From the NCBI RefSeq assembly GCF_003382285.1, contig NZ_QTJR01000001.1, positions 372,001-436,000 on the forward strand: 64,000 nucleotides of DNA, in the 5' to 3' direction. Numbering within the stretch: the stretch's first letter is position 1; each line of letters opens with the position of its first letter. A model generated the notes under the pieces. It saw nothing but the letters and a program-made list of their open reading frames with translations, was not told the origin of the DNA and did no database searches. The stretch is from Lysobacter soli (GTDB lineage Bacteria; Pseudomonadota; Gammaproteobacteria; Xanthomonadales; Xanthomonadaceae). Both the position numbers and the translations under genes were made by a program. Shown piece after piece: positions 41,255 through 64,000 of this stretch.

Positions 41255-41534
41255 GAAGATGCAGACTCCGGAACAAACGCCTTCACAGGACGACGCGCCG
41301 CGGTCGCAAGCGGGCCGCAGCGCACACGCCGCCTGCGATCCGGCGGCCCCCCGGACGCCGATCCTCGGCCGTCCTGATCGAATCCAACGCAATGCGCGGC
41401 CCATTCCGGCACCCGTGTCCGGCGGCGGGCGAACCGCCTGGCGTGATGCATCGAAGACCCGCCGACCCGCAGGCGCTGGCCGGAAATCCGCCCCCGCACC
41501 GTTCGCTCATGACGAATGCAAGGGGGTTGTCCGT
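41255..41534 (+). promoter_or_regulatory. Intergenic leader between galE and the exopolysaccharide operon
   Basis: This 280-bp divergent gap must hold the promoters for both galE and the operon. No clear -35/-10 pair was found by eye. A strong Shine-Dalgarno sequence, aaggggg at 41520-41526, precedes the operon's first start codon. Confidence 0.4.
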
Positions 41535-47119: not shown

Positions 47120-47126
47120 GCGCGCC

Positions 47127-48296
47127 ATGAGCCAGTCGCGCCCGTTCGCGTTGCAGGTGCGCTCCAGCGCGGGGCTCTACGGCGCCGACCGGGTCGTGCT
47201 CGCGCTCAACCGCGCGCTCGATCGCGGCGGCGCTCGTGGTCGCCTGCTGAGCATCAACAACTACCGCATGCACGAACAGGCGTTGCACGACGTCGCCTCG
47301 TCGAGCGGGCAGGATGCCGTGCTGCTGCCCTGCCGCGGGCGGGTGGATGCCGCGACGATTGGTGCGCTGTCGGCCCAGATCGGCGCCGCGCGTGGCCGCA
47401 CCGGCACGCCGCCGGTGGTGCACGTGCACGATTACAAGAGCGCGTTCTACGCGTGGCTGGCGACGCGTCGCGAACATCATTCCGGACAGCCCGCCCCCCT
47501 GGTAGCGACGCTTCACGGCTGGGTCGAAGGATCGACCGCGCTGCGCCTCTACACGCGGCTGGAACTCGCCCTGCTCCGCCGTTTCGACGCGCTGGTCGTG
47601 GTCGCCGCGGAACAGATCGACCGCCTAGCCCGCGCCGGCGTGCCGCGTTCGCGCATCCGCCACGTCGACAACGGCATCGAATGCCCGGTGCGCGACGAGG
47701 CCGCCGCGTCGGCCCTGCGCGCGCAACTGCGCATCGCGCCGGACGCGCATGTGTTCTCCGCCGTCGCGCGCCTGTCGAGCGAGAAGAACCTCGCGATGCT
47801 GCTGCGCGCGTTCGCGCCGGTGGCGTCGCGTCATCCGCATGCGGTGCTGATGATCGTCGGTGACGGTCCGGAGCGCGAATCGCTCGAGACGCTCGCGGGC
47901 GATCTTGCCCTGAATGGGCGCGTCCGTTTCCTCGGCATGCGCCACGACATGCCCGCGATCTACACGCTGACCGACCACCTCGTGCTGCCGTCGCTCACCG
48001 AAGGCATGCCGCTCGTGGTGCTCGAAGCGATGGCCTGCGAGGTGCCGGTGATCGCCAGCGCCGTCGGCGACATCCCGCGCCTGCTCGAACACAGCGCGCA
48101 CGGGCGCACGGTACCGCCGGGCGATGCGGAGGCATTGGAGTCCGCACTGGAAGCCGCCGTCACCACGCCCCGCGCGCGCGACATCGCCGCTCGCGACTTC
48201 GTTCGCGAGCGCCACAGCGCACAGGCGATGGCCGCCGCGTACGTCACGCTGTATCGCGAACTGCTGGAGGCACGCCATGCGCGGCGCGCATCCTGA
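47127..48296 (+). CDS. Glycosyltransferase family 4 protein
   Basis: GT-B glycosyltransferase of 389 aa. The N-terminal half has ALQVRSSAGLYGADRVVLALNRAL and VVHVHDYKSAFYAWLA. The C-terminal half has VARLSSEKNLAMLLRAFAPV, LMIVGDGPERESLE and the nucleotide-sugar motif PSLTEGMPLVVLEAMACEVPVIASAVGDIP. It begins 7 bp after the preceding glycosyltransferase, and its end overlaps the ligase gene by 20 bp. Acceptor and donor are unknown. Confidence 0.9.
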   Translation: MSQSRPFALQVRSSAGLYGADRVVLALNRALDRGGARGRLLSINNYRMHEQALHDVASSSGQDAVLLPCRGRVDAATIGALSAQIGAARGRTGTPPVVHVHDYKSAFYAWLATRREHHSGQPAPLVATLHGWVEGSTALRLYTRLELALLRRFDALVVVAAEQIDRLARAGVPRSRIRHVDNGIECPVRDEAAASALRAQLRIAPDAHVFSAVARLSSEKNLAMLLRAFAPVASRHPHAVLMIVGDGPERESLETLAGDLALNGRVRFLGMRHDMPAIYTLTDHLVLPSLTEGMPLVVLEAMACEVPVIASAVGDIPRLLEHSAHGRTVPPGDAEALESALEAAVTTPRARDIAARDFVRERHSAQAMAAAYVTLYRELLEARHARRAS

Positions 48297-49635
48297 CGCC
48301 GGCGGTTCGCGCTTCCCGCTCGCGGCCAGGGCGCTGCGCGGCGCGATGCCGGCGGGCACGCGCACGCGGCTTCCCGTGGTGCCGGGTTCGACCGCTGCGG
48401 CGCAGCCGACCGCGCGCGCAACGACGCGTGCGCCGCGCAACTGGGCGCTCTACCTGTTCCTGATCCTGCTTCCGCTGCAGAACATCACCGCCGGCTACCT
48501 GCCCAACATCGGCGGGGGTTTCAACTTCCTCAACGTGATGTTCCTGATCTCGCTGTTCACGGCGATGGCGCAGGGCGGCAAGCTCGCGCCGAACGAGCCC
48601 GTCAACACGTGGACGACGGTGTACGCGGTTTACATGACGCTGTCGCTGCTGGTCGGCTTCCACTTCGTGGACGACCCGACCAACCACTTCAACCAGCTCA
48701 AGGACCACATGGTCGGGCTGTTCGTGGTGTACGTGGTGCAGATGAGCGTGCGCGACTGGAATGGCGTGCGCATGGTGGTGTTCGCCACGCTGCTGCCGCT
48801 GCCGTACATCGCGAAGGTCGTATGGAACCAGCATCGCAGCGTCGCCAGCACGCACTACACCGACGACCTGCGCATCAGCGGAACCTTCGCACTCCTGGGC
48901 GCCAACGAATTCGCCGCGTTCTGCGTGACGGTCGCCGTGGTGTTGTTCGCATTGCTGCTCGCGTGCCGGTTGTCGCGCAAGTGGAAGATCGTGCTGATGG
49001 GCGGTATCGCCTGCATGATCCTCGGCGTGCTCTACGCGTACTCACGCACTGCGTACATCAGCCTGATCATGGGCATGGTGGTGGTGATCATGGTCTGGCG
49101 CGGCCGGTTGAAGCTGATCCTGCCGCTGTGCCTTGCGGTGGTGATCGCGCCGGCGGTGCTGCCCAAGTCGGTGGTCGAGCGCTTCGACAGCACCACGGTG
49201 GAGGAAGGCAAGCGCGACGAGAGCACCGAGTTGCGCATCGAGTACTGGAAGATCGCGTGGGCCAACTTCCTGCGCAATCCCGTCGTGGGAACGGGCTACC
49301 ACACCTTCCACCATCGCGAGATCAACCCCTACGGCCGCGACACGCACAACCTCTACATCCGCACGCTCAGCGAAGGCGGCGTGTTCGGCGCGATCACGCT
49401 GCTGGGCATCCTGCTGGCGGTGTTGCGAACGGCGATGCGCGAGGTCCGCGAGGCGCGGACCGGAACCTGGCGATACGCGCTGGCGCTGGGAATGATGGGC
49501 GCGTGGGTGTCGATGGTCATCGCCAACCTGTTTGGCGACCGTTTCACGTATTACCCGGTAATCGCCTACTTCTGGGCCTACATGGGCCTGGTCATGAAGG
49601 CGCGCCACCTGCCGCCGGAGGATTCCTCACGATGA
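48277..49635 (+). CDS. O-antigen ligase/polymerase-like membrane protein
   Basis: A 452-aa polytopic membrane protein with about ten hydrophobic segments. The Wzy_C (O-antigen ligase) pattern includes FALLGANEFAAFCVTVAV, YAYSRTAYISLIMGMV, LRIEYWKIAWANFLRNPVVGTGYHTFHHRE and DTHNLYIRTLSEGGVFG. The RXXY and conserved His parts fit WaaL/Wzy-like enzymes, and similar proteins are annotated as putative O-glycosylation ligases of exosortase-A loci. The N-terminal 50 residues are Ala/Arg-rich and cytoplasmic. Whether it polymerises the repeat unit or attaches glycan is open. Confidence 0.87.
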   Translation: MRGAHPDAGGSRFPLAARALRGAMPAGTRTRLPVVPGSTAAAQPTARATTRAPRNWALYLFLILLPLQNITAGYLPNIGGGFNFLNVMFLISLFTAMAQGGKLAPNEPVNTWTTVYAVYMTLSLLVGFHFVDDPTNHFNQLKDHMVGLFVVYVVQMSVRDWNGVRMVVFATLLPLPYIAKVVWNQHRSVASTHYTDDLRISGTFALLGANEFAAFCVTVAVVLFALLLACRLSRKWKIVLMGGIACMILGVLYAYSRTAYISLIMGMVVVIMVWRGRLKLILPLCLAVVIAPAVLPKSVVERFDSTTVEEGKRDESTELRIEYWKIAWANFLRNPVVGTGYHTFHHREINPYGRDTHNLYIRTLSEGGVFGAITLLGILLAVLRTAMREVREARTGTWRYALALGMMGAWVSMVIANLFGDRFTYYPVIAYFWAYMGLVMKARHLPPEDSSR

Positions 49636-50669: not shown

Positions 50670-50693
50670 CATCGCAATCGTGAGGGCACCGTC

Positions 50694-51458
50694 ATGGGAA
50701 CGCTGCCGATCCTGATGTACCACGGCCTGCATCGCGAGGAATCCTCGCGCGGCCGCTTCGATCCCGTCTACAGCGTGCATCCGGAGATGTTCGCGCGGCA
50801 GTTGGACTGGCTGGTGCAGCAGGGCCATCGCGCGCCGCTGCTCGAAGACGCGCTGTCGAGCGCGAATGGCACGCGCGACGTGATCATCACCTTCGACGAT
50901 GGCGATGTGTCCAACGTCGAGATCGCGATGCCGTTGCTGCTCGAACGCGGCCTGCGCGCGGAGTTCTTCGTCACCACCGATTTCATCGGCCAGTGCGGCA
51001 TGCTCGCGCCGGACGACATCCGCCGGCTAGCCGCCAACGGCATGGGCATCGGCTCGCACGGTCGGACGCACTCGTTCCTGTCCGATCTCGATGTCGCCGA
51101 CCTCACGGCGGAACTCGACGACAGCCGCTGCCGGCTGCAACAGATCTGCGGCCGGCCGATCGACTCGCTCGCACTGCCCGGCGGACGCGGTGGCGAACGC
51201 GAGTTGCTCGCCGCGCAACAGCTCGGCTACCGGCACCTGCTCGGGTCCGTGCCCGGGCCGAACAAACGCCGGCGTTCCGATACGTGGCTGCAGCGTCTTC
51301 CCGTCACGCGCAACCTCTCGCTCGACGATTTCGCCGCGCTGGTGCACTGGCGCGGCTTGCCCGCACGCTGGATGCAGGCGCGGCATGCCGCGCTCGCGCT
51401 GCCCAAGCGCGTGCTCGGCAACGACGGTTACCAGCGCCTGCGCGAGCGCCTGCTGTGA
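50694..51458 (+). CDS. Polysaccharide deacetylase family protein (second copy)
   Basis: CE4 protein of 254 aa, shorter and unlike the neighbour. Motifs are ILMYHGLH, IITFDDGDVSN, SHGRTHSFLSDLD (H-x3-H zinc ligands) and ALPGGRGGERE. No signal peptide is seen. The arrangement resembles the small deacetylases of exosortase-A polysaccharide loci. It lies 24 bp after the first deacetylase, and its stop overlaps the next start (GTGA). Confidence 0.88.
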   Translation: MGTLPILMYHGLHREESSRGRFDPVYSVHPEMFARQLDWLVQQGHRAPLLEDALSSANGTRDVIITFDDGDVSNVEIAMPLLLERGLRAEFFVTTDFIGQCGMLAPDDIRRLAANGMGIGSHGRTHSFLSDLDVADLTAELDDSRCRLQQICGRPIDSLALPGGRGGERELLAAQQLGYRHLLGSVPGPNKRRRSDTWLQRLPVTRNLSLDDFAALVHWRGLPARWMQARHAALALPKRVLGNDGYQRLRERLL

Positions 51459-52588
51459 ACGCCGCGGTCCTCTTCTGGCTGTGCATCGCGCTGGTCGCGT
51501 GGGCGTACGCGGGCTATCCGCTGCTGGCGGCCCTGCTCGCGCGCCGCTACGGGCATGCGCCGTTCCAGAACGACGCGGATTGCGAACACGTCACCGTCGT
51601 CGTCGCAGCCTTCGACGAGGAGGCGCGCATCGCCGCGCGTGTGCGCGACATCCTCGAGCAGGACTACCCGGCCGATCGCCTGCAAGTGCTCGTCGTCAGC
51701 GACGGCAGTCGCGACGGCACCGCTCGCGCCGCGGCGAACATCGACGACGAGCGCGTGCGCGTGCTCGATCTTCCGCACAACGTCGGCAAGGCCGCTGCGC
51801 TCACCCTCGCGCTGCACCAGGTCGATACGCCACTGGTGGCGTTTACCGACGTGCGCCAGCGCTTCTCGCCGGGCGCGCTGCGTACGTTGTGCGCGCCGTT
51901 CGCCGATCCATCCGTCGGCGCAGTGAGCGGCGAGCTGGTGATCGCCGCCGCCGACCATGGCACCGGCGAAGGCGTCGGCCTTTACTGGCGCATGGAGAAG
52001 CGCCTGCGTTCGGACGAAGCGCGCCTGGGCTGGCTGCACGGCGTCAGCGGCTCGATCCACGCACTGCGCCGCGCGTTGTTCGTGGCGATTCCCGCCGGCA
52101 CCGTGCTCGACGACATGTGGATGCCGCTGCAGGTGCTGCGATCCGGCCATCGCGTGTGGATGGCGCGCGAGGCGCTCGCGTTCGATCGCGCCAGCCACAG
52201 CGTCGACGAGGAATTCCAGCGCAAGCTGCGCACGCTCGCCGGGAACTGGCAGCTGATCAGGCGGCTGCCGTGGCTGGCCAATCCGTTCGCCAACCCCGTC
52301 TTCTTCGCGTGGTTCTCGCACAAGTTCCTGCGCCTGCTGGTGCCGTGGGCGCTGCTGGTCGCGCTGGCGGCGAGTGCGTTCGCGGGTGGCGCGCTGTATC
52401 GCACGTTGTTCGGCCTGCAATTGCTCGCCTACGCCGGCGCGCTCGGCGGACTGGTGGTGCCGCGCATCGCCGCGCGCCTGCCGCTGCTGCCGGCGGCAAG
52501 CAGCTTCGTGATGCTGAACTTCGCCGCGCTGCTGTCGTTGCCCGCTTCGCTGGCGATGGACCCGTCGCGGTTGTGGAAGAAGCACTGA
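51455..52588 (+). CDS. Membrane glycosyltransferase family 2 protein
   Basis: GT-A enzyme of 377 aa with an N-terminal membrane helix (residues 4-24). The GT2 catalytic domain has VTVVVAAFDEEARIAARV, VLVVSDGSRDGTA, VAFTDVRQRFSPGAL for the DXD-like region, and GSIHALRR. Two or three C-terminal hydrophobic segments follow (about 275-365), as in processive or polyprenyl-linked transferases. The QXXRW-like motif is not obvious: QRKLRTLAGNWQL occupies that place. GTG 51455 is coupled to the upstream stop. Confidence 0.9.
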   Translation: MNAAVLFWLCIALVAWAYAGYPLLAALLARRYGHAPFQNDADCEHVTVVVAAFDEEARIAARVRDILEQDYPADRLQVLVVSDGSRDGTARAAANIDDERVRVLDLPHNVGKAAALTLALHQVDTPLVAFTDVRQRFSPGALRTLCAPFADPSVGAVSGELVIAAADHGTGEGVGLYWRMEKRLRSDEARLGWLHGVSGSIHALRRALFVAIPAGTVLDDMWMPLQVLRSGHRVWMAREALAFDRASHSVDEEFQRKLRTLAGNWQLIRRLPWLANPFANPVFFAWFSHKFLRLLVPWALLVALAASAFAGGALYRTLFGLQLLAYAGALGGLVVPRIAARLPLLPAASSFVMLNFAALLSLPASLAMDPSRLWKKH

Positions 52589-53835
52589 TGGCCCGCATCC
52601 TCGCATTGACCAGCCGCCTCCCCTTCCCGCCGCGCGAGGGCCACCAGCTGCGCGCCTGGCACGTGCTGCGCGCGCTCGCGTCGAAGCACGAGGTCACGCT
52701 GCTGAGCTTCCAGCGCAACGACGACCTTCCCGCCGAAGCCGGCCCGCTGCATGCAGCGATGACGCGCGTGGAGACCTTCCGCATTCCGGCCGAACGTTCG
52801 CGCGGCGCGCTCGCACGCGCCGCCCTTCGCGGCACGCTGACGCCGACACCTTTCCTCGTCGCCAAGTACGACTCGGCCGCGCTGCGCGAGCGCCTGCGCG
52901 CACTCGCGCGCGATGCCGACCTCGTCCACTTCGACATGCTGCCGTTGATCGCACACGCGGACTGCGTGCCCGAAGGCGTGCCCGTCACGCTCAACGCGCA
53001 CAACGTCGAACACCGCCTGCTCGCCACACGCGCACGCATCGAGACGCGCGGATGGGCGCGGCGTTTCCTCGGCAGCCAGGTCGGCAAGCTCGAAGCCTTC
53101 GAGCGCCGCGCCTGCGAGCGCGCCGATGCGGTGCTGGCGTGTTCCGATGTCGATGCGCAGGGCCTGCGCGATCTGGTGCCCGACTGCAACGTGCACGTGG
53201 TCGCCAACGGCGTCGATCTGGAGACCAACCATCCTGCCGCGCACGCGCCGGATCCGGACCGGCTGGTGTTCGTCGGCCAGATGGGCTGGTTCCCCAATCG
53301 CGACGGCGTGGACTGGTTCCTGCGCGATGTTTTCCCCCGCATCCTCGCGCGCCGGCCCGGCACGCGTTTCGAGCTGGTCGGCAAGGCCGACGGTTTCGAG
53401 ATACCCGAAGCGGTGCGCGCGAACGTGGACCTCGCCGGTTTCGTCGACGATCTGCGTCCGCACGTGCACGACGCGTCGGTCTATGTCGTGCCGTTGCGCG
53501 CAGGCAGCGGCACGCGCCTGAAGGTGCTGGAGGCGATGGCGCTGGGCAAGGCGATCGTCACCACCAGCATCGGCAGCGAAGGCATCGCGCTTCGACACGA
53601 TCGTAGTGCGCTGTATGCCGACGATGCGCAGCCCTTCGCCGATGCCGTGCTGTCGTTGCTGGATTCGCCCGTACGCGTGGCGGAACTAGGCATCGAGGCG
53701 CGACGACTGGCCGAGGACGAGTACGGCTGGGAGGCCATCGGCGCACGCCTGCTGCGTGCGTACGAGCCGCTGCTCAACGGCAACGTGCGACCGGTGCGCA
53801 CGGCGTTGGCGGATCTGGGGGCTATCGAGGCGTAG
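52588..53835 (+). CDS. Glycosyltransferase, exosortase-A locus type (TIGR03087-like)
   Basis: GT-B protein of 415 aa. The N terminus ALTSRLPFPPREGHQLRAWHVLRAL and VTLNAHNVEHRLL are strongly reminiscent of the PEP-CTERM/XrtA-associated glycosyltransferase family. The C-terminal part has FVGQMGWFPNRDGVDWFLRDVFPRIL and PLRAGSGTRLKVLEAMALGKAIVTTSIGSEGI. It starts within the stop of the preceding gene (TGATG). Its 3' end overlaps the convergent YdcF-like gene by 14 bp. Confidence 0.88.
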   Translation: MARILALTSRLPFPPREGHQLRAWHVLRALASKHEVTLLSFQRNDDLPAEAGPLHAAMTRVETFRIPAERSRGALARAALRGTLTPTPFLVAKYDSAALRERLRALARDADLVHFDMLPLIAHADCVPEGVPVTLNAHNVEHRLLATRARIETRGWARRFLGSQVGKLEAFERRACERADAVLACSDVDAQGLRDLVPDCNVHVVANGVDLETNHPAAHAPDPDRLVFVGQMGWFPNRDGVDWFLRDVFPRILARRPGTRFELVGKADGFEIPEAVRANVDLAGFVDDLRPHVHDASVYVVPLRAGSGTRLKVLEAMALGKAIVTTSIGSEGIALRHDRSALYADDAQPFADAVLSLLDSPVRVAELGIEARRLAEDEYGWEAIGARLLRAYEPLLNGNVRPVRTALADLGAIEA

Positions 53836-54693: not shown

Positions 54694-56535
54694 ATGGCCA
54701 TCCTGCGGCTTCGCCTTCCTTTCGTCCTGCTGCTTTCCTGCGCGATCGCGCCATGGGCGATGCCGTCGACTGCTTCGGCAACGACGTACTACGTACGCAC
54801 CGATGGCGGTACCGACGAGCAATGCAACGGCCGCGCCGACGCGGCATATCCCGGCAGCGGCAACAACGTCGATTGCGCGTGGAGCCATCCGAACTACGCG
54901 CTGCCGACCAACGATCGCCCGAGAATCGACGGCGGCGACACGCTGATCATCGGACCGGGCGAATACATGATCGGCTGGGAGTCGCCGGGGCTCTCGACGA
55001 AGAGCACGCGCTGCGACCGCTCCTCGCCGTACGACTGCTATCCCGCGTCGCCGCCGAGCGGTACCGCGCAGCAACGCACGCGCATCCTCGGCGCCGGCCA
55101 TGACTCCGGCTGCAAGGCGCCGCCGAAGCTGTGGGGCACCAACCGCGTGGACCTGGTGTTCAACCTGCAGGACGCCGACAACGTCGAAGTCGGCTGCCTG
55201 GAGATCACCGACAAGAGCGACTGCGTGGAATTCCACGCGAACGACGACGTGCGCTGCGAGCGCGACGCGCCGCCGTTCGGGCAATGGGCATCGATAGGCA
55301 TCGGCGCGAAACGCTCGAGGAACGTCTGGCTGCACGACCTGAACATCCACGGATTGTCGGGTCGCGGCGTGATGGCCGGCGGGCTACGCGACTGGACCAT
55401 CGAACGCGTGCGCATCCACGCCAACGGCTGGGCGGGCTGGGACGGCGACGTCGGCGAAGGCGAAAGCTCGAACGACGGCGACATCGTGTTCCGCAACGTG
55501 GAAATCGCGTGGAACGGCTGCGCCGAACGCTGGCAGACCGGCGAGCCCTACGCGTGCTGGGCGCAGGAGGAAGGCGGCTACGGCGACGGCCTGGGCACCG
55601 GCAAGACCGATGGCCATTGGCTGGTCGAGGACTCGCGCATCCACCACAACACGTCCGACGGCCTCGATCTGCTGTACACCGACGAATCGAAGACGGCGAC
55701 GGTCGTCGTGCGTCGCGTGTACGCCGCCGCGAACGCCGGCAACCAGGTGAAAACCGCGGGCAACGCGCTGGTCGAGAACTCGGTGATCGTCGGCCAGTGC
55801 GCGTACTTCCACAAGAAATACGACATGAGCGACGGCGACATGTGCCGCGCGTACGGCAACGCGCTATCGATCGGCGTGGGGCCGAAGCAGACCGCGACCG
55901 TGCGGCACAACACCATCACTGGCGAAGGCGACTGCCTGATCCTCACCGCCGGCGGCAACGCGACCTCGCGCGTGGACATCTACAACAACGCGCTGATCGG
56001 CCAGAAGGACGTCACCGCCAGCGACGGCGACATGCGCAGCTGCGCGCATTACGCCGACGACAGCACGGCGGTGGTGAGCTTCGCGGGAAACGCGTTCTGG
56101 AACGTCAAGGACGACATGTGCCCGCCCGGCAACGTGTGCGGACGCGAACCGAAGATCGCCAGCAGCGACATGGCGACGTTCGATCCCGCGCCTCTGGCCG
56201 GCAGCCCGCTGATCGACCATGCGACGCAGAACACGAGCGTGACGTCGGACTTCCTGCGGCAGTCGCGACCGATGGGTGCGGCGGCGGACATTGGCGCAGT
56301 CGAGTATCAGGGCGGAACTGCGGCTGCCGTGCCTGGTGCGGGCGCGGCGCCGGACGCGTCGAAGGCCGCCTCGTCGAATGCGAGCGACGGATCGGCCATC
56401 GACGGCACGTCGTCGGGTGCCGTGACGCCGACGCAGTCTTCGGGCTGGATGATCGGGACGATCGCGGTGGCGTCGCTGCTCACCGCCGGCGTGGCAGCGG
56501 CGCTGCGGAAGCATCGGGGGCGGAAGGTGGGGTGA
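54694..56535 (+). CDS. Secreted Cys-rich right-handed beta-helix protein with C-terminal membrane tail
   Basis: A 613-aa exported protein. The signal peptide ends near residue 30 (STASA). YYVRTDGG and DTLIIGPGEY open a right-handed parallel beta-helix rich in Asn/Asp/Gly turns (WLHDLNIHGLSG, VENSVIVG, VRHNTITGEG and VDIYNNALIG). It contains some 18 cysteines. After a Ser/Ala-rich spacer (about 545-580) come SSGWMIG, a membrane segment of about 19 residues and a basic tail RKHRGRK, a layout like C-terminal sorting tags. The fold suggests a polysaccharide lyase, epimerase or binding role. No catalytic residues can be assigned. Confidence 0.8.
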   Translation: MAILRLRLPFVLLLSCAIAPWAMPSTASATTYYVRTDGGTDEQCNGRADAAYPGSGNNVDCAWSHPNYALPTNDRPRIDGGDTLIIGPGEYMIGWESPGLSTKSTRCDRSSPYDCYPASPPSGTAQQRTRILGAGHDSGCKAPPKLWGTNRVDLVFNLQDADNVEVGCLEITDKSDCVEFHANDDVRCERDAPPFGQWASIGIGAKRSRNVWLHDLNIHGLSGRGVMAGGLRDWTIERVRIHANGWAGWDGDVGEGESSNDGDIVFRNVEIAWNGCAERWQTGEPYACWAQEEGGYGDGLGTGKTDGHWLVEDSRIHHNTSDGLDLLYTDESKTATVVVRRVYAAANAGNQVKTAGNALVENSVIVGQCAYFHKKYDMSDGDMCRAYGNALSIGVGPKQTATVRHNTITGEGDCLILTAGGNATSRVDIYNNALIGQKDVTASDGDMRSCAHYADDSTAVVSFAGNAFWNVKDDMCPPGNVCGREPKIASSDMATFDPAPLAGSPLIDHATQNTSVTSDFLRQSRPMGAAADIGAVEYQGGTAAAVPGAGAAPDASKAASSNASDGSAIDGTSSGAVTPTQSSGWMIGTIAVASLLTAGVAAALRKHRGRKVG

Positions 56536-56871: not shown

Positions 56872-56927
56872 GAGGAGCGCAGGGCACCGCCGCGTAGCGG
56901 CGGCTCGCGTCAGGAGCGGATGGTTTT

Positions 56928-56955: not shown

Positions 56956-57012
56956 CGCTCGTTCACGAGCGGAAGCTGTTGATCTTGCTTCCGCGTTGCC
57001 CGCGTGAGTTCC

Positions 57013-57147: not shown

Positions 57148-57201
57148 GATAAAGCGTTTCGCCGGCGTGGGAATGCCGAAAGCCCCGACAACCCGCAACG
57201 C

Positions 57202-58698
57202 CTACCCCACCGCCCCTTCGCCAATCCGCCGCTCGACCGCACGCAACTTCGGATACAGCATCGCCCGCAGGCGCCCATCGAGCGCCAGCAGCACCAGCAG
57301 ATACGGCATGCCGATCAGCATTCCGCCGACGAGCATCCGCTGCCATCCCGGACGCAGCGACAGCTGCACCGTGACCCATCCGCCGAGCAGCGCGGCGATC
57401 GCGGCGAAAACGACCGTGGTCAGCGTCTTCGCATCCGGGAACTGTCGCAGTGAACGATCCACCATCACGCAGGCCGCCAGGCTCGACACCGCCGAACTCA
57501 CCAGCGTCGCGTACGCCGCGCCCATCACGCCGTACGCCGGGATCCAGAACCAGTTCAGCGCTGCGTTGACCGCCACCGCCAGGCACATCAGTGCCAACAC
57601 GGTTTTCGTGCGGCGCTCCAGCACGAGGCCGAAGCCGCACACCAGCATCACCGGCAGGATCGCGTTCATCGCGCCCATCAGTTCGAACACGGGGCCCGAT
57701 TGCGCCTTGCCCGCGCCGCTGAGCGCGATGATCAGGTCCGTGCCCAGCGTCCACAGCAGGATGGCGACGCCGATCGCGGCATAGGTCATCGGCATCAGCA
57801 TCGTGCGCTTGAGCGCGCGCACGGCCGCCGCGCCGTCGGTGGTGAACACGCGGTTCGCGGCGGGCGTGAACGACTCGAACACGGTGAGGTTCATGAACAT
57901 GTGCACCTGCATCGCCAGCGCCGCGCCGACGCTGTAGATGCCGACCACCGCGAAGTCGCCCGACAGGTTCTTGAGCATGATGCGGTCGACCGACACCAGC
58001 GCGACAGCGAGGATCTCCGTTGCCACCAGCGGCATGCCGTAGGCGAACGACTGGCGCAGTTCCGCCGCATCCATGCGGCTGCGCGCGAAATGCAGGTTGC
58101 GGCGCGCCCAGCCGAAGTAGAAGGCCATGCCGACCACCACGGCGAGCAGCTTTCCGCCATACGCCGCCGCCGCGGTGTGCTGCACCGCCAGCACCGCGCC
58201 CAGCATCAGTGCCAGTTGCAGCCAACGCCAGGCGACGCGCGTGAGCATCACCGTGCGCGACTGTTCCGTCACGCGCAGCACGGTTTCGACGAGGCTGGAA
58301 TACACCAGCATCGGCGTCATCACCAGCGCCATCCAGAACACGGGCGAATGACCATCGCCGGTGACGTAGCCGTGCACGATCACCACCGCACCGACGAACG
58401 CCCACAACGCGAGCGAGCCGATCATCGGCAGGTAGAACAGGTTCGTGGCGAACGAACGCATGCGCTCCTCGTCGCCACCGTGCGGATAGAAGCGCTGGAT
58501 CGAATGCTGCGCGCCGAGCTTGGCGACGGCCACCGCCATCAGCACCCAGGTTTCGTAGTAGCCGAGGATGCCGTACTGCGTGTTGTCCAGCAGCCGCGTG
58601 AGCAGCGGGAACGACACGAGCCCCGCCATCATCACCAGCAGGTTGGCGGTGGAGTAGCGCAGGTAATGCCGGGCCAGACCGGGGGTGCCGTTGCTCAT
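57202..58698 (-). CDS. Oligosaccharide flippase (Wzx/MATE-like)
   Basis: A 498-aa polytopic inner-membrane protein with 12-14 predicted helices. The N terminus HYLRYSTANLLVMMAGLVSFPLLTRLLDNTQYGILGYYETW is typical of Wzx-type polysaccharide or lipid-linked oligosaccharide exporters, and FVPAYGVMGAAYATL-like text occurs late (IPAYGVMGAAYATLVS). It starts 1 bp beyond the stop of the preceding hydrolase gene, so it is the last gene of the NRPS operon. It probably flips a lipid-linked glycan or glycopeptide made by this region. Confidence 0.88.
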   Translation of the reverse strand: MSNGTPGLARHYLRYSTANLLVMMAGLVSFPLLTRLLDNTQYGILGYYETWVLMAVAVAKLGAQHSIQRFYPHGGDEERMRSFATNLFYLPMIGSLALWAFVGAVVIVHGYVTGDGHSPVFWMALVMTPMLVYSSLVETVLRVTEQSRTVMLTRVAWRWLQLALMLGAVLAVQHTAAAAYGGKLLAVVVGMAFYFGWARRNLHFARSRMDAAELRQSFAYGMPLVATEILAVALVSVDRIMLKNLSGDFAVVGIYSVGAALAMQVHMFMNLTVFESFTPAANRVFTTDGAAAVRALKRTMLMPMTYAAIGVAILLWTLGTDLIIALSGAGKAQSGPVFELMGAMNAILPVMLVCGFGLVLERRTKTVLALMCLAVAVNAALNWFWIPAYGVMGAAYATLVSSAVSSLAACVMVDRSLRQFPDAKTLTTVVFAAIAALLGGWVTVQLSLRPGWQRMLVGGMLIGMPYLLVLLALDGRLRAMLYPKLRAVERRIGEGAVG

Positions 58699-58699
58699 T

Positions 58700-59581
58700 T
58701 CAGGGCGTCCGCGCGCCGAATTCGGCCTGCATCCACGCGGCGATGCGCTTGAACAGCACGCCGCGATGCTTGCGAAGGAAGAAGGTGTGGTCGTATTCGC
58801 GCCAGAACTCCAGGCTCACCTGCTTCTCCTGCGCGGCGCGCCCGAGGCTCGCGGCCAGCTGCGCGCGATGGTTGAAATAGTGGTACGCGCCACCGGTGAA
58901 GACGAACAGCAGGCGAACGTCGCGCGCGACCATCTCCGAGAGCATGCCGCGTGCCTGCCCGCGTTCGGGCCAGTCGCGGAAATCCGACAGCGACGGCGCG
59001 GGATTGCGGCGCGACATCAGGAAACGCAGCACCTTTCCGACGTCGAACAATCGCGGCACGACATGCCGAACCCAGAAGCCCGGCGTCGGATACGCCACAC
59101 CGTCCAGCAGGATCGCCCCGGCCACGCGCGCATCGACGGCGCCGACATGGAACGCGTCGTCGGCGCCCGAGCACAGGCCGCAGAGGACGAAGCGCTCCGC
59201 ACCGGTTTCGTGCGCGAGCACGCGCATCGCGGCGTCGATCTCGCGCTGGCGACGCTCGCCCGCGGCCTTGCCCGGCAGCGCGCTGTCGCCGAGGCCGGAC
59301 TGGTCGAAACGAAATACCGCGAAACCCAGCGCCGCGAGCATGCGCGCGAGTTCCACGTGCATGCGGAACGGACCCGTATGGCGCGTGAGCCCTGCGTTGA
59401 GCAACAGCACGCCGACCTTCGCCACGTCGCCGTGCGGCCGCGTGACCACGCCGACGAGGCCTTCGCCGAATCCATGCGCGGTCTCGACGAACGCGTCGTG
59501 CGCGTGCGTCGCCGCGTGAGTGTGCGACCGCGCGACCTCCGTGCGGCCTTCCAGCGCCTTCTCGTCGAGTTGCAGGTTCAC
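58700..59581 (-). CDS. Alpha/beta hydrolase resembling exosortase-A-associated hydrolase
   Basis: A 293-aa alpha/beta hydrolase. The opening GLVGVVTRPHGDVAKVGVLLLNAGLTRHTGPFRMHVELARML and VFRFDQSGLGDS are like the short hydrolases of exosortase-A polysaccharide loci. The presumed nucleophile elbow is LCGLCSGADDA, where a Cys or Ser occupies the centre instead of GxSxG. A late His is in YDHTFFLRKHRG. GTG 59581 overlaps the stop of the next hydrolase (GTGA). The substrate is unknown; deacylation or thioester editing for the adjacent NRPS is a guess. Confidence 0.82.
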   Translation of the reverse strand: MNLQLDEKALEGRTEVARSHTHAATHAHDAFVETAHGFGEGLVGVVTRPHGDVAKVGVLLLNAGLTRHTGPFRMHVELARMLAALGFAVFRFDQSGLGDSALPGKAAGERRQREIDAAMRVLAHETGAERFVLCGLCSGADDAFHVGAVDARVAGAILLDGVAYPTPGFWVRHVVPRLFDVGKVLRFLMSRRNPAPSLSDFRDWPERGQARGMLSEMVARDVRLLFVFTGGAYHYFNHRAQLAASLGRAAQEKQVSLEFWREYDHTFFLRKHRGVLFKRIAAWMQAEFGARTP

Positions 59582-60387
59582 CACGGCACCTGTGCGGTCA
59601 TGCGCTGCGCGAGCTGGGCGACCGCGCGACGCGGGAATACCTGGCCGCCGAAACGCGACGGCACGTTCCATTCGGGACGCTCGCCTTCGTCGAGCAGCAC
59701 CGCTTCCACCGACACGCCGCCAGCGCGTTGCTCGCGGGCGAAGCGATCGAGCTCCTCGTCCATTTCCCACACCGCCATGCGCACGCGGCTGCCGCGCGGC
59801 AGCTTCAAGTGCGCGGCATCGAGTGCGGACAATGCGTCGAGCAACGCGTCGGTGGCGCCGAAGCCGAGCAGCTCGCCTTCGTCGGATTCGTGCGTGACGT
59901 TCACGTAGCGGCCGCTGCCATGCAGTTGCTGACGATGTTGCCCTCTCCACGAGGCCACGAGCGTCGCGCCGACCAGTTGCGGATCCCACAGCACGACTTC
60001 GACCGGATCGACGCGGCGTTCCAGCGCGGCGAGCAGCGGCAACGCCGCGCTTCGCAGCGCGAGGAACTGCACGCTGTCCACTTCACCCCGGTGCAGCAGT
60101 TCGGTCGATGCACGTTCCAGGTCGTCGAGCATGCCCGGCAGGCTGAGCTCGATGTCCTGCCCGCCCGAATCGCCGGTGCCATACCAGTCGAACGTCAGCG
60201 CGGGAATGCCGTACTGCCCCACCGTCTGCGCGAGCGACCACAGCGCACGATGGCTGCGGATGCCATCCTGCAGCAGTGGCGCGCACAGCAGCAGCGCCTG
60301 GTTCGATTCCGGATTCGCGTCCTCGCGTCCGTGCAACAGGCCGAACAGGTTGCGTCCGGGTGCACCGAAAAAGAACGGCGCGCTCAT
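59578..60387 (-). CDS. Alpha/beta hydrolase-like protein resembling the second exosortase-A-associated hydrolase
   Basis: A 269-aa protein. The N terminus APFFFGAPGRNLFGLLHG, then LLLCAPLLQDGIRSHRAL and ALTFDWYGTGDSGG, is alpha/beta-hydrolase-like. The nucleophile elbow region reads FLALRSAALPLL, which lacks a clear GxSxG, so catalysis is doubtful. ATG 60387 overlaps the NRPS stop (ATGA). It pairs with the next hydrolase, as these two families do in exosortase-A loci. It might be a non-catalytic partner or a diverged thioesterase. Confidence 0.8.
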   Translation of the reverse strand: MSAPFFFGAPGRNLFGLLHGREDANPESNQALLLCAPLLQDGIRSHRALWSLAQTVGQYGIPALTFDWYGTGDSGGQDIELSLPGMLDDLERASTELLHRGEVDSVQFLALRSAALPLLAALERRVDPVEVVLWDPQLVGATLVASWRGQHRQQLHGSGRYVNVTHESDEGELLGFGATDALLDALSALDAAHLKLPRGSRVRMAVWEMDEELDRFAREQRAGGVSVEAVLLDEGERPEWNVPSRFGGQVFPRRAVAQLAQRMTAQVPW

Positions 60388-63300
60388 TCGACCGTCCCCG
60401 GCGTGCGCAGCAGGCGCTTCATCGTGCGTGCCATGCGCGACCCCATGCCGCTGCGTTCCTCGCGCGCAATGTTCATCGGCAGGTCCGCGGCGATCTGCGC
60501 CAGGTTCGTCGCCGCCAGCCGCATCAGCTGGATGCGCACGCCGGTGTCCTTCGCCACGCGGCTGGACATCTGCACCGCGAGCATCGAGTTGCCGCCAAGG
60601 TCGAAGAAGTTGTCCTGCGCGCGCACGTCGACGCCGAGCAGTTCCTTCCACAACTCGCGCAGGTAGATCGCGCGCGGGTCGTGGTCGGCAACGGCATCGT
60701 TGTCCGACGCATCCGCCTTCTCCACCGAAGGCGCGGGTTCGCCGCGCCCCTGCGCGCTCAGGATTGCCGCGGCGAGCTTCGCCACCAGCGCCGGCGATTC
60801 GATCATGCCCTGGTGGTCGCCCGGAATCGGCACGACATGCACGTTGCCGCACATCGCTTCCCAGCCAAGCTTCGGCTTGGCGCTGAGCTCCGGCGGCTGG
60901 TTGTCGGCGCGGAACAGCACGATGCCACCGGCATACGGCTTGACGAAGTACTTCACGTACGCACGCATGTGCGTGGCTTCGAGCTCGGCGTAGCGCACGT
61001 TGTGTGGCAGTTCCTCACCCGCGTCGCGTGCCTGCTGCGCCTGCTGGCGAAGCTTCGACGCCTGCAGGCGCCCGCCGACGACGCCGCCGAGCGTCGCGAT
61101 GCGCTCGCCCAGCGTCTGCCCCTGCATGCGGCGATGCAGCCGCCGCACGCGACCGGAGAGGCCGCTCTGCGCCTGCGCGCGATAGCGGATGCCGAACTCC
61201 GCCGAGGTATCGACCAGGCCGAGCATGCCGACGGTTTCGCCGGCGGCCATCAGTTGCTGGGCCATCTCGAAGGCGATGATGCCGCCCATCGAGCCGCCGG
61301 CCACGTGATACGGGCCGTGCGGCTGCACGCTGCGGATCTCGCGCACGTAGCGTTCGGCCATCTTCTCGACGCTGTCCAGCGGTGCGGTGCGGCCGTCCAG
61401 GCCGAGCGCCTGCAGGCCGTAGACCGGGATGCCGGCGGGCATCGCCTCGGCGAGCGGACGGTAGTTCAGCACGTTGCCGCCCACCGCATGCACGAGGAAC
61501 AGCGGCGCGCCTTCGCCGTGCGGGCGGATCGGCACCAGCGGCGCCCACGGATCCGGACGTGCGTCGTCGCCATGCGCGTGGATGTCGTTGCTCACGCGCT
61601 GGTACTCGCGCGCCAGCGCACGCACCGTGCGCGCGGTGAGCAGCGTGGCCAACGGCAGGTTGACGCCGGTCTGCTTGTTGAAGCGATGGAACATCTGCAC
61701 GGCCTGCAGCGAATGCCCGCCGAGCGAAAAGAAATCATCGTCCGCGCCGATGTCCGGCTTGCGTAGCAGGTCGCGCCAGATCTCGAGCAGCTGCAGGCCG
61801 GGTTCGTCCAGTGGCTCGTCGGTCTGTTCGGCCGTCGCGGCCGCGGGCTCCGCTTGCGCGTCTCCCGCTGGTTCGGGCGTGCGACCGAAGCGCAGCGGCT
61901 GACCGTCGTCGAACTGCGTGATCTGCTCGAGCGTGAGCGAGGGATCGCGACCGAGCGCCTTCAGTACCGCGACGTAGCGATCGCGCAGCAGCGCCGCGGT
62001 TTCGTCCAGGAAGATGTCGGCGTTGTAGATGAAGCCGCCCGACAGGCCCGTGTCCTGTTCGACGAACCACAGGCCCAGGTCCTGCGTGGATGCAGTCTGG
62101 AACACCGGATAGCGCTCGTGCGTGAGCGGTCCCCATTCGCACATGCGCTGGCGGATGTCCTGGAACGAGAACAGCGCGTGATACAGCACCGCGCCGCCTT
62201 CCCGGCTGCGCACGCTCAGCTCGCGCACCAGGTCTTCGAGCCGGATGTCCGGATGCGCGAAGCTGTCCAGCACGACGTCCTTCACCTGCTTCACGGCCTG
62301 CGCGAAAGTCATCGATGGATCGATCTCCATGCGCAGCGGCAGCAGGCTGGTGAAGTAGCCCATCAGGTTCTCGACTTCGGCCGTGTTGCGCCCGCGCACC
62401 GGCGTGCCGACGATCAGCTCGCGCAGGTTCGACGTGCGGCTGATCAGCGCGAAGTACGCGGTGAGCAGCACCATGTACAGCGTCGCGTCGACCTTGCGCG
62501 CGGTCTCGTGCAGCGCCGCGGTCACGTCGCTGGCGACGGTGATGCGATGCGTGACGCCGCGCCCCGACATGCCCGGGCGACGCGGCAGGTCGGTCGGGAG
62601 CGCTTCGATCGCGTGGCCGACGCCGCCCAGCCGCTCGCGCCAGAACGCCAGCTGCTTGGCGTATTCCGGGCCTTGCAGCCAGTCGCGGTGCCACGCGGAG
62701 AAATCCGCGTACGTCACCGTCAGTTCCGGCAGCTTCGGCTCGCGCTTCCCCAGCTGCGCGGCGTAGAGCTCGGCCATGTCGGTGTACATCAGGTCGAACG
62801 ACCAGCCGTCCCAGATCAGGTGATGCGTCATGAAGAACCACACGTGCTCTTCCGGCCCGAGGCGGAACAGCCGCGAGCGGATCAGCGGCGCGCGATCGAG
62901 TTCGAACGGCGTCTGGATGAGCGCGTCCATGCGGCGGGAGACTTCTGCCTCGCGCTCGTCTTTCGGGAGATGGCTCACGTCGACGACGTCGGTGATGTCG
63001 ACATCGACCACGTCGTGCACGATCTGCATCGGCTCGCCGTCGATGAGGCCAATGGTCGTGCGCAGCACGCTCTGGCGCTGGATCATCGCGTTCAGCGCGG
63101 CCTGGAACGCATCCAGCTCCAGCGGTCCGCGCAGACGATGCGCGCTGGGCGTGTTGTAGGTGATCTGGCCGGGGTTGAACTGTTCGAGCAGGTACAGCCG
63201 CTCCTGCATGACCGACATCGGCCCGCGCGTGCGATCGGTGAGCGGCTTGATCGGCTCGCGCGCAGGCAGCGCCTCGCCGTCCATGCCCTGCACCATCCGC

Positions 63301-64000
63301 GCAAGCTTGGCGACGGTCGGGCCGTCGAACAGCGCACGCAGCGACAGCGTGATCCCCAGTTCCTTGTTGATGCGCGAGGTCAGCTGCGCGGCGAGCAGCG
63401 AATGCCCGCCTAGCGAGAAGAAATCATCGTCGACGCCGACTTCCGCGACGCCAAGGACTTTCGCCATGGCATCGGCGATCGTGCGTTCCAGCGCATTGCG
63501 CGGCGCGACGCGTTCGCCGGCCAGCTTCACGGTCAGGTCGGGCGCAGGCAGCGATTTGCGGTCGATCTTGCCGTTGGGCAGCAGCGGGATCGCATCGAGG
63601 AACAGGATGTGCTGCGGGATCATGTAATCGGGCAGCGACCCCTTGAGGTACGACACGAGCGCCGCTTCGTCGAGTGCACCGCCCTCGCCCACCACATACG
63701 CCACCAGACGCACGTCGCCGGGGCGATCCTCGCGCGCGACCACGACCGCGCGCGCGACCTGCGCATGCGCCGCAAGCAGCGCTTCGATCTCGCCCAGTTC
63801 GATGCGATAACCGCGCACCTTCACCTGGAAATCCAGGCGTCCCTGGTGTTCGAGCACGCCGTCCTGGCGCCAGCGGCCGCGATCGCCCGTGCGATACAGC
63901 AGCGCGCCCTTCGACGCCGCGAAGGGATCTGCCACGAAGCGCTCGGCCGTGAGCTCCGCGCGATCGAGATAGCCCAGCGTCACGCCTTCGCCGCCGATCC
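60384..64000 (-). CDS. Nonribosomal peptide synthetase, C-terminal part (A-T-C-T-TE-T); 5' end outside window
   Basis: Open to the right edge; about 1205 residues are visible. Order from the N side: end of an adenylation domain (GGEGVTLGYL, YRTGDRGRW, GRLDFQVKVRGYRIELGEIE, NGKIDRKSLP); carrier T1 (DDFFSLGGHSLLAAQ, Ser near 63401); a condensation domain with HHLIWDGWS (near 62820); carrier T2 (DDFFSLGGHSLQAVQ, Ser near 61711); a thioesterase with GGSMGG (near 61290) and a His in PGDHQGM; and a last carrier T3 (DNFFDLGGNSMLAVQ, Ser near 60585). No adenylation domain follows the condensation domain, and a carrier after the thioesterase is unusual. It is first of a coupled operon with two hydrolases and a flippase. 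The product is unknown. Confidence 0.93.
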   Translation of the reverse strand, partial: IGGEGVTLGYLDRAELTAERFVADPFAASKGALLYRTGDRGRWRQDGVLEHQGRLDFQVKVRGYRIELGEIEALLAAHAQVARAVVVAREDRPGDVRLVAYVVGEGGALDEAALVSYLKGSLPDYMIPQHILFLDAIPLLPNGKIDRKSLPAPDLTVKLAGERVAPRNALERTIADAMAKVLGVAEVGVDDDFFSLGGHSLLAAQLTSRINKELGITLSLRALFDGPTVAKLARMVQGMDGEALPAREPIKPLTDRTRGPMSVMQERLYLLEQFNPGQITYNTPSAHRLRGPLELDAFQAALNAMIQRQSVLRTTIGLIDGEPMQIVHDVVDVDITDVVDVSHLPKDEREAEVSRRMDALIQTPFELDRAPLIRSRLFRLGPEEHVWFFMTHHLIWDGWSFDLMYTDMAELYAAQLGKREPKLPELTVTYADFSAWHRDWLQGPEYAKQLAFWRERLGGVGHAIEALPTDLPRRPGMSGRGVTHRITVASDVTAALHETARKVDATLYMVLLTAYFALISRTSNLRELIVGTPVRGRNTAEVENLMGYFTSLLPLRMEIDPSMTFAQAVKQVKDVVLDSFAHPDIRLEDLVRELSVRSREGGAVLYHALFSFQDIRQRMCEWGPLTHERYPVFQTASTQDLGLWFVEQDTGLSGGFIYNADIFLDETAALLRDRYVAVLKALGRDPSLTLEQITQFDDGQPLRFGRTPEPAGDAQAEPAAATAEQTDEPLDEPGLQLLEIWRDLLRKPDIGADDDFFSLGGHSLQAVQMFHRFNKQTGVNLPLATLLTARTVRALAREYQRVSNDIHAHGDDARPDPWAPLVPIRPHGEGAPLFLVHAVGGNVLNYRPLAEAMPAGIPVYGLQALGLDGRTAPLDSVEKMAERYVREIRSVQPHGPYHVAGGSMGGIIAFEMAQQLMAAGETVGMLGLVDTSAEFGIRYRAQAQSGLSGRVRRLHRRMQGQTLGERIATLGGVVGGRLQASKLRQQAQQARDAGEELPHNVRYAELEATHMRAYVKYFVKPYAGGIVLFRADNQPPELSAKPKLGWEAMCGNVHVVPIPGDHQGMIESPALVAKLAAAILSAQGRGEPAPSVEKADASDNDAVADHDPRAIYLRELWKELLGVDVRAQDNFFDLGGNSMLAVQMSSRVAKDTGVRIQLMRLAATNLAQIAADLPMNIAREERSGMGSRMARTMKRLLRTPGTVE

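Follow-up and report, generated by a model that had tools for sequence, protein, structure and literature searches.

Exopolysaccharide (EPS) loci of the exosortase-A type carry a recurrent set of genes, for a ligase, a carrier and two proteins of the alpha/beta-hydrolase fold, to which, to our knowledge, no function has been assigned. The question of what this set does is raised by a locus of Lysobacter soli in which genes for two such hydrolases are found between an NRPS gene and a flippase gene. The sequence considered here, referred to as the window, is a stretch of 64,000 nucleotides from this genome. Its initial annotation proposed that an amino acid or short peptide is activated, joined to a lipid-linked sugar or lipid, and exported with the polymer. 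No publication on such a system was found in the open-access literature, as judged by titles and the opening parts of abstracts. An analysis of the operon, its surroundings and its relatives is presented here.

Organization of the operon and of the surrounding EPS locus

The four minus-strand genes described initially are the 3′ part of a translationally coupled operon of five, namely nrpsA, nrpsB, hyd1, hyd2 and the flippase gene (Table 1). Their junctions are as annotated, with ATGA between the NRPS gene and hyd1, GTGA between hyd1 and hyd2 (the hyd2 start codon being the GTG at 59581) and TGA-A-ATG between hyd2 and the flippase gene, which closes the operon after a gap of 1 bp. The nrpsB gene is cut by the window edge, with its ATG at C1:438491 (window position 66491). 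Inspection of the sequence past 64000 revealed one further megasynthase gene upstream, nrpsA, a frame of 2448 codons (C1:438488-445834, likely ATG at 445789) that overlaps nrpsB by another ATGA. The flippase scores 70.8 bits on PF01943 (cut-off 28.2; profile search) and is also HfsF-like, below cut-off.

The operon is nested in an exosortase-A-type EPS locus without an exosortase. On one flank lie an initiating sugar transferase (TIGR03013) and a PPTase, on the other the Wza/Wzz/outer-membrane genes, and TIGR03013, TIGR03027, TIGR03007 and TIGR03016 are all over cut-off at the locus. The operon faces the EPS genes, as had been noted, the plus-strand genes on that side reaching 56535. No exporter besides the Wzx-type flippase was found in the locus genes that were scanned. 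For the exosortase XrtA, TIGR03109 gave 0/1 in the L. soli genome, a profile that no control genome passed either, and PF09721 gave no match in the same genome (G000). Matches to PF09721 occur in 92 of 299 genomes of the order Lysobacterales, only 5 of them full-length and strong and none of these 5 among the 51 genomes with the megasynthase (see below), four of which (G016, G034, G237 and G261) have a short weak match. Dependence on an exosortase is thus ruled out. PEP-CTERM targets, searched with TIGR02595, gave 0 matches in the L. soli genome and likewise 0 in the controls.

Table 1. Genes of the EPS locus and of the operon within the window
Feature	Position	Strand	Remarks
NAD-dependent epimerase-like gene	40169..41404	-	Edge of EPS locus
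Wza-like EPS export protein	41253..42164	+	TIGR03027 over cut-off; open frame, true start probably later
EPS chain-length determinant	42161..43768	+	TIGR03007 over cut-off; presumed start; open frame 41516-43768
EPS autokinase/ATPase	43765..44532	+	TIGR03018-like, below cut-off; presumed start, from ATGA overlap; scanned within frame 42244-44532
Outer-membrane protein	44584..45948	+	TIGR03016 over cut-off
Glycosyltransferase	45905..47119	+	TIGR03088-like, below cut-off
Second GT4 glycosyltransferase	46623..48296 (open frame)	+	Domains in residues 187-548; true start estimated at ~47130
Wzy/O-antigen-ligase-type polymerase	48124..49635	+	PF04932; TIGR03097-like, below cut-off
Two polysaccharide-deacetylase genes	49635-50669, 50694-51458	+	Profile search
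Two glycosyltransferases	51428..53835	+	GT2-like; TIGR03087-like GT4, below cut-off
Beta-helix protein, choice-of-anchor Q domain	54694..56535	+	Also in some related loci
Wzx-like flippase	57202..58698	-	PF01943 match
hyd2	58700..59581	-	Alpha/beta-hydrolase fold, TIGR03100-like, Cys137 and His265; proposed acyl/peptidyl transferase
hyd1	59578..60387	-	Alpha/beta-hydrolase fold, TIGR03101-like, Arg112 at nucleophile elbow
nrpsB, 3′ part	60384..64000	-	C-terminal 1204 codons: end of A2, T2, C2, T3, TE, T4

A hybrid assembly line

Profile searches gave the domain order A-T-KS-AT-ACP-aminotransferase (AMT) for nrpsA and C-A-T-C-T-TE-T for nrpsB. All the domains of a hybrid PKS-NRPS assembly line (A, T, KS, AT, ACP, AMT, C and TE) have their core catalytic motifs, as has the PPTase, and the 3′ part of nrpsB contains the active-site motifs HHLIWDG, LGGHS (twice), GGSMG and LGGNS. 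The enzyme had been annotated as an NRPS, and Condensation, AMP-binding, PP-binding and Thioesterase domains were indeed matched; however, since KS, AT and aminotransferase are encoded in the upstream gene, the system is a PKS-NRPS with an aminotransferase, and a plain NRPS is ruled out.

The specificity code of A2, DILQLGVVWK, is Gly-like. A Val-type A1 pocket occurs in 53 of 70 related synthases, and Pro-type A1 pockets exist as well. The code of the L. soli A1 domain, DILIIGGIMK, recurs in just 3 of these 70. The domain architecture is conserved across 80 named loci, kept from 244 (alignment A1, a set of sequences and not the domain, took 12 of 30 loci). The TE of the L. soli nrpsB has its Ser and His motifs, and the T3-TE segment is an insertion in this lineage. 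Among 72 nrpsB frames reaching their end (74 less 2 truncated; split 28/20/24 counted by eye), a TE is present in only 6, so that the other synthases need another release enzyme.

Two hydrolase-fold proteins and their carrier

In profile searches, hyd1 scores 57.0 bits on TIGR03101 (curated cut-off 202.75) and hyd2 72.3 bits on TIGR03100 (curated cut-off 168.45). The initial comparison with the hydrolases of exosortase-A loci therefore holds as a likeness to these two families but falls below their curated cut-offs. In hyd2, the nucleophile Cys137 and His265 are invariant (51/51 aligned). In hyd1, an Arg (Arg112) stands at the nucleophile position in 52 of the 53 aligned sequences, and no His is conserved at 80%. 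These alignments (A2 for hyd2, A3 for hyd1) comprise 51 and 53 rows, including the window’s own, chosen from 65 and 73 non-redundant sequences among the 82 and 83 found. Predicted models place Cys137 of hyd2 and Arg112 of hyd1 at the strand-helix turn of the nucleophile elbow, and the matches listed for a Foldseek search with the hyd2 structure (best 50) are generic esterases, lipases and peptidases of the alpha/beta-hydrolase fold. Judged by their residues, the two ‘hydrolases’ look more like a Cys-transferase and a nucleophile-less partner than like hydrolases. The elbow Arg of hyd1, the elbow Cys of hyd2, the adjacency of the genes and the upstream carrier are shared between the L. soli pair and the TIGR03101/TIGR03100 hydrolases, as features observed in this analysis and not as the curators’ family definition.

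Of the 29 hyd1 genes of the named set, 28 are preceded by a carrier at a distance of at most 450 bp, four times in the same open frame. It is directly upstream of TIGR03101 in all 10 exosortase-A genomes tested, taken from the 14 over the TIGR03101 cut-off. Each of these 14 passes the TIGR03098 cut-off as well, and in 9 the two matches share a contig. The pairing of the hydrolases with a ligase (14/14, TIGR03098) and a free carrier (10/10 tested) in exosortase-A loci, on which the initial annotation had relied, was therefore recovered. Six exosortase-A stretches of 12-20 kb have the hyd pair with ligase and carrier only, and no C or KS domain. An NRPS-derived carrier profile and a motif scan missed these free carriers, which were found by a looser motif listing and PF00550; in a carrier tree (20 of 80 loci, few columns) they could not be placed. 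The synthase had seemed to take the place of ligase and carrier; this is only partly true, and strict replacement of the ligase is ruled out, since in 10 of the 51 megasynthase genomes a protein resembling the ligase is retained (E<=1e-90, though under the cut-off of TIGR03098).

Linkage of the operon to EPS across genomes

The megasynthase aminotransferase (at least 540 bits) was found in 51 of the 299 genomes, and hyd2 (at least 100 bits) and TIGR03007 are both present in all 51, scoring per genome being limited to the best few candidates. The 540-bit line was set after viewing the list and excludes five genomes (460-341 bits), two with hyd2 and TIGR03007 (G012 and G035) and three without a hyd2 match (G189, G291 and G272). 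Five genomes have hyd2 and no strong aminotransferase; in each of the three inspected (G136, G185 and G258), hyd1 is immediately preceded by an NRPS. Since the co-occurrence spans related genomes, Fisher p-values overstate the association.

In the 47 genomes with both genes on one contig, the aminotransferase is at most 60 kb from TIGR03007 in 42 (median of the 47, 31 kb), 79 and 91 kb away in two and 401 and 467 kb away in two more; in four genomes, megasynthase and TIGR03007 are on different contigs. Where the distance exceeds 400 kb, the hyd pair stays at the EPS core. Of the 68 named loci with full flank, just 27 have the pair within 10 kb downstream of the aminotransferase. The 32 genomes in which hyd2 is ~3 kb from TIGR03007 rather than beside the megasynthase all belong to family f12, which we take to be Rhodanobacteraceae, and the space before hyd1 is too short for a carrier in the three inspected (neighbourhoods were inspected in ten of the 59 genomes with hyd2).

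The order megasynthase, hyd1, hyd2 recurs in other genera, which argues that the arrangement is not chance. Outside the order, A-T-KS-AT-T-AMT | C-A-T-hyd1 | hyd2 (L200) and A-T-C-A-T-hyd1 | hyd2 (L201) were found (vertical bars separating genes). The initial annotation had named beforehand what would make the link to the polysaccharide a matter of chance (a long lipopeptide cluster, its own exporters, no co-occurrence), and the outcome of the examination goes against a chance link. Altogether, with the operon lying within an EPS locus and the EPS chain-length gene and hyd2 present in 51/51 megasynthase genomes, the linkage to EPS is strong, and co-occurrence across the order rules out a chance neighbourhood.

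A proposed tailoring arm for EPS

The carrier, hyd1 and hyd2 are best read as an acyl/peptidyl-transfer module that would add an amino-acid-derived group to an EPS precursor. We give about even chances to the operon being a tailoring arm of the EPS pathway, in which the assembly-line product is moved by these three onto the precursor. The nearby PPTase would prime the carriers and the first A domain would load an amino acid. The KS and malonyl-type AT, observed with their catalytic residues, would extend it by one C2 unit to a gamma-amino-beta-keto thioester, whose beta-keto group would be aminated by the embedded aminotransferase to yield a 3,4-diamino acyl chain. Module 2 would add Gly, as its pocket code suggests, and a second residue, which would be Gly in synthases with an intact last A domain, would be added or held by the terminal C and T. 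The finished chain would then sit on T4, the last carrier; in many relatives this carrier is fused to hyd1 or encoded immediately ahead of it. At T4, hyd1 (elbow Arg, no conserved His) may dock or position the carrier, while Cys137 of hyd2 would accept the chain, His265 acting as the base, for transfer to an amino or hydroxyl group of the lipid-linked EPS repeat unit. The T3-TE inserted in the L. soli lineage may provide a different route for releasing or transferring the chain. The operon’s flippase would then move the decorated unit across the membrane, Wzy polymerize it and Wzz/Wza-type proteins export it, roles known from these families. The predicted product is a cationic, peptide-polyketide-decorated EPS.

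A free small molecule (a beta-amino or diamino peptide-polyketide), secreted and merely sharing the EPS locus, for instance as a matrix-bound signal or metallophore, is unlikely. The PKS-NRPS layout with a PPTase is a typical one, the TE of the L. soli synthase could release one, and two genomes have the megasynthase more than 400 kb from TIGR03007. Nevertheless, hyd2 and TIGR03007 accompany the megasynthase throughout, most synthases have no TE, the flippase is the only exporter among the locus genes scanned, and the hyd pair also occurs in exosortase-A loci where, over six stretches of 12-20 kb, only ligase and carrier were found.

Attachment of the chain to a lipid or protein (e.g. the priming lipid or the beta-helix protein) instead of the EPS sugar, with the flippase exporting the conjugate, is less probable still. 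The PKSs of the rkp/wcb clusters have a lipid-anchor role. That type I PKS genes occur in these capsule clusters (PMC3908369, as far as the part of that source considered here goes) is in favor of it, as is the position of the flippase gene at the end of the operon. The flippase had been counted among the partners and is Wzx-like by PF01943, but just 10 of the 68 loci with full downstream flank have it there, near the megasynthase, and an EPS locus of this type requires a flippase anyway.

A role for hyd1 and hyd2 as editing (type II) thioesterases that only clear misprimed carriers, with release by other means, is improbable: alpha/beta-hydrolase folds do adjoin NRPS genes and type II thioesterases commonly edit, LgnA both shuttling aminoacyl groups and editing (PMC8748450, in the part considered), but the nucleophile is an invariant Cys and not Ser, the partner has Arg, most synthases are without a TE, the pair remains with the EPS core in the two genomes where the megasynthase is more than 400 kb away, and hyd1 is fused to the terminal carrier in some genomes.

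The tailoring reading can be widened. Somewhat below even odds, in our view, a carrier and a two-protein transferase (hyd1 Arg, hyd2 Cys) form a general module that transfers acyl or peptidyl chains from a carrier to EPS precursors, with suppliers ranging from ligase and free carrier (exosortase-A loci) to full PKS-NRPSs (Lysobacterales). If so, there would be a class of polysaccharides bearing nonribosomal peptide-polyketide groups, here of the 3,4-diamino acyl-glycine type, and the orphan exosortase-A hydrolases would gain a function. An amino-acid-based product passed to a polysaccharide would be an undescribed mode of decorating the bacterial coat and, if true, nonribosomal chemistry would routinely decorate a matrix polymer (51 of the 299 genomes sampled), extending natural-product and polysaccharide biology and suggesting a means of attaching designed groups to polysaccharides. 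The exosortase-A hydrolase set is now tied to readable assembly lines with a predictable product, whereby the question of its function becomes testable.

Comparison with known systems

The closest counterpart is the exosortase A (XrtA/PEP-CTERM) EPS locus, with which the L. soli locus shares the backbone over cut-off (TIGR03013, 03027, 03007 and 03016), the order carrier-hyd1-hyd2 and the Arg/Cys motifs. It differs by the absence of a detected exosortase in the genome, by hydrolases below curated cut-offs and by a PKS-NRPS standing where ligase and free carrier stand there. Mycosubtilin MycA and microcystin McyE are hybrid PKS-NRPSs with an embedded class III aminotransferase; the likeness lies in KS-AT-ACP-AMT followed by C-A-T, the difference in the amino-acid-type A domain that precedes KS here and in the genes being part of an EPS locus.

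In the Dlt system, an adenylation domain and a carrier supply an amino acid to a cell-surface polymer (D-alanylation of teichoic acids), with one amino acid and membrane acyltransferases. An A domain and carrier feeding a surface polymer would be common to both systems, but here an assembly line and alpha/beta-hydrolase-fold proteins would do so; on DltA the L. soli A domains reach 266 and 285.5 bits, below its cut-off of 476 and thus outside the Dlt type, and no DltB-like family was found among the locus genes scanned.

CmaE and SyrC act through a Cys nucleophile. In the parts of the sources considered, CmaE, SyrC and CysB are stand-alone transferases shifting aminoacyl groups from carrier to carrier (PMC7966384, PMC8748450), likened here by role and not by sequence; they move single residues between carriers, whereas here a protein pair would act at the last carrier, with a sugar as the probable acceptor. 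Finally, RkpA/WcbR, type I PKSs of rhizobial and Burkholderia capsule clusters (PMC3908369), resemble the present system by a type I PKS gene within a polysaccharide cluster. No NRPS, aminotransferase or hyd1/hyd2 is described for them in the part of that source considered, whereas in L. soli the KS-AT is preceded by an amino-acid-type A domain.

Operon and surrounding locus

The four genes named in the initial annotation of the window, part of a 3.95-Mb genome (nrpsB, the TIGR03101-like and TIGR03100-like alpha/beta-hydrolase-fold genes hyd1 and hyd2, and a Wzx-like flippase gene), together with their junctions, were all present on re-reading of the sequence, and the operon was enlarged by one further upstream gene, nrpsA. 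The domain order is A-T-KS-AT-ACP-aminotransferase in nrpsA and C-A-T-C-T-TE-T in nrpsB (TE, thioesterase), and the domains carry catalytic motifs, including the aminotransferase lysine motif and an HAFH motif in AT that we take to be malonyl-type. Among the matches listed, the nearest named ones for the aminotransferase domain come from Lysobacter arvi and L. changpingensis (97%).

The plus-strand genes form an EPS locus of exosortase-A type, with Wza-like (TIGR03027), Wzz-like (TIGR03007) and outer-membrane (TIGR03016) proteins over family cut-offs, a kinase (TIGR03018) and two glycosyltransferases (TIGR03088 and TIGR03087) below them, a Wzy-type polymerase and two deacetylases. The far side of nrpsA holds a DnaJ-domain gene, an initiating sugar transferase (TIGR03013, 537 bits versus a cut-off of 393), a 4′-phosphopantetheinyl transferase (PPTase) and a UDP-glucose/GDP-mannose dehydrogenase-family gene. 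Since EPS-type genes occupy both flanks, the operon is embedded in the EPS locus rather than adjacent to it. Family profile searches of the genome found no exosortase. A beta-helix protein possibly binds or modifies the EPS; in some relatives, homologues of it are encoded close to the hydrolases or flippase, with two copies in L214, L216 and G282 (L, loci collected from relatives; G, genomes of a 299-genome order sample).

Features of the operon and its surroundings (C1, genome contig; window = C1:372001-436000)
Feature	Coordinates	Strand	Remarks
nrpsA	C1: likely ATG 445789, stop 438488	-	immediately upstream of nrpsB, ATGA overlap
nrpsB	C1: start 438491	-	sequence read beyond window
Small DnaJ-domain gene	C1:446232-446924 (L001:18232-18924)	opposite to nrpsA	between nrpsA and sugar transferase
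EPS genes	window 41253-53835	+	exosortase-A type
Beta-helix protein gene	window 54694-56535		choice-of-anchor Q domain, C-terminal hydrophobic tail
REP-like inverted repeats	window 39968-40143 and 56655-57148		GTCATCCC...GGGATGAC type, both edges of left EPS gene block

Synthase architecture and adenylation pockets

Across relatives, nrpsA is nearly uniform, the exceptions being cut contigs and one split frame. In L127 (Rhodocyclaceae MAG, about 4628-11500) it is spread over three open frames, through frame breaks or assembly errors. Of the 72 nrpsB frames that are complete to the stop, 28 have an intact terminal A domain, 20 have one that lacks core motifs and 24 have none; in those 20 of 72 synthases the domain is decaying or repurposed. 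Core-motif loss was seen in L114-L117, L120, L122, L123, L125, L126, L137 and L139, among others. A TE occurs in six of the 72 frames (L085, L086, L087, L104, L128 and L163). In a carrier tree built on few columns, T4, the last carrier of the window's nrpsB, belongs to a 17-member group of terminal carriers (support 94/94), a group outside which those of L118 and L127 fall. Its third carrier, T3, clusters with carriers that precede a TE (99/89), and on this grouping T3-TE looks like an insert.

Pocket positions were set by motif, and codes are presumed to denote the amino acids named. The A1 pockets of nrpsA (n = 70) are Val-type in 53, Pro-type in nine, Thr-type in two and other in three; the code of the window's genome, DILIIGGIMK, recurs in 3/70, without amino-acid assignment. 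The A2 pockets of nrpsB (n = 73) comprise 46 Gly-type (DILQ....WK), 21 DI[LM]Q.G.VY-type, three Ser-type and three others, and of 48 terminal A pockets, 28 are Gly-type and 20 could not be read.

Distribution and co-occurrence

Scoring the best few candidates per genome, hyd2 was matched in 59 of 299 order genomes (at least 100 bits in 56) and the embedded aminotransferase in 56 (at least 540 bits in 51). All 51 strong-aminotransferase genomes have both hyd2 and TIGR03007; among the other 248, hyd2 reaches 100 bits in five and TIGR03007 occurs in 24, counts that are not independent events because the genomes are related. Aminotransferase and TIGR03007 share one contig in 47 genomes (median distance 31 kb, at most 60 kb in 42) and are on separate contigs in four. 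Larger distances are 79 kb (G293), 91 kb (G100) and 3.1 Mb (G290). In G290 one gene sits close to each end of a 3,148,097-base contig, so that a circular contig would leave about 22 kb between them. The megasynthases of G221 and G232 are 401 and 467 kb away from TIGR03007, yet hyd2 is 3 kb from it.

The named-relative set (80 loci kept of 244) covers Lysobacter, Pseudoxanthomonas, Luteimonas, Rhodanobacter, Dyella, Luteibacter and Frateuria and a few Burkholderiales/Rhodocyclaceae MAGs. Within 10 kb upstream, the 67 loci with full flank contain a sugar transferase in 40, a PPTase in 23, a DnaJ-gene homologue at the same place in 37 and at least one of the three in 51; downstream, hyd1 and hyd2 are found in 27 of 68 full-flank loci and a flippase in ten.

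The hydrolase pair and its carrier

In all 51 aligned hyd2 sequences (12 from loci found with TIGR03101, eight of these over its cut-off), the nucleophile-elbow residue is Cys and a His is conserved close to the C-terminus. Hyd1 has Arg at the elbow position in 52 of 53, an alignment with no His conserved at 80%. In predicted models (mean pLDDT 88.2 for hyd2, 93.4 for hyd1), Cys137 of hyd2 and Arg112 of hyd1 lie at a strand-to-helix turn. Where TIGR03101 is over cut-off, the Arg motif is found in 14/14 loci and the Cys motif in at least 10 of 13 partner genes, with one more in the alignment.

In the named set, 28 of the 29 hyd1 genes have a carrier domain no more than 450 bp upstream, four of them in one open frame with it; the exception is L127, where a PPTase-like gene intervenes. 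The second set gives 11/20, again with four in one frame; its nine others are six exosortase loci with carriers missed by the profile and three fused hyd1-hyd2 frames. A PF00550 search placed a carrier just upstream of TIGR03101 in 10/10 exosortase-A genomes tested. In loci from outside the order, the pair comes after A-T-KS-AT-T-AMT / C-A-T (L200), A-T-C-A-T (L201) or A-T alone (L203, L205), the last carrier sharing one open frame with hyd1 in all four. In L203 and L205, the A-T-hyd1 and hyd2 genes adjoin a separate aminotransferase-like gene and may represent a reduced form of the same chemistry. In L204 and L206, one open frame spans hyd1 and hyd2, and profile searches found no NRPS domain within the 20-kb stretch. 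In 32 genomes of family f12, taken from matching contigs to be Rhodanobacteraceae, hyd2 instead lies about 3 kb from TIGR03007; in the three examined (G120, G244, G252) hyd1 starts at most 30 bases from the outer-membrane gene and thus has no adjoining carrier.

Proposed route and comparison with known systems

Gene content, order, conservation, catalytic motifs and co-occurrence are observed, and suggest a route in which an amino acid, malonate and transamination would yield a 3,4-diamino acyl unit, to which Gly would be added. The chain would be parked on T4, taken by hyd2 on its Cys and passed, with hyd1, to an EPS precursor for export by the flippase and EPS machinery; the TE of the window's nrpsB may offer another way of release. 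The initial interpretation is partly supported: a functional link of the operon to EPS is very probable, and EPS decoration by the hydrolase pair has about an even chance.

The EPS backbone is of a known kind, as are the domains of the assembly line, whose setting was not found described: in the mostly open-access literature searched, and judged by listings, neither an NRPS nor a PKS-NRPS is described within an EPS locus of exosortase type. Passages of the sources cited offer precedents for stand-alone enzymes of carrier-bound aminoacyl transfer (CysB, SyrC and CmaE; PMC7966384, PMC8748450) and for PKS in capsule clusters (rkpA/wcbR; PMC3908369). Compared with TIGR03100 and TIGR03101, hyd2 and hyd1 score below the curated cut-offs, yet motifs and gene order are common to both.
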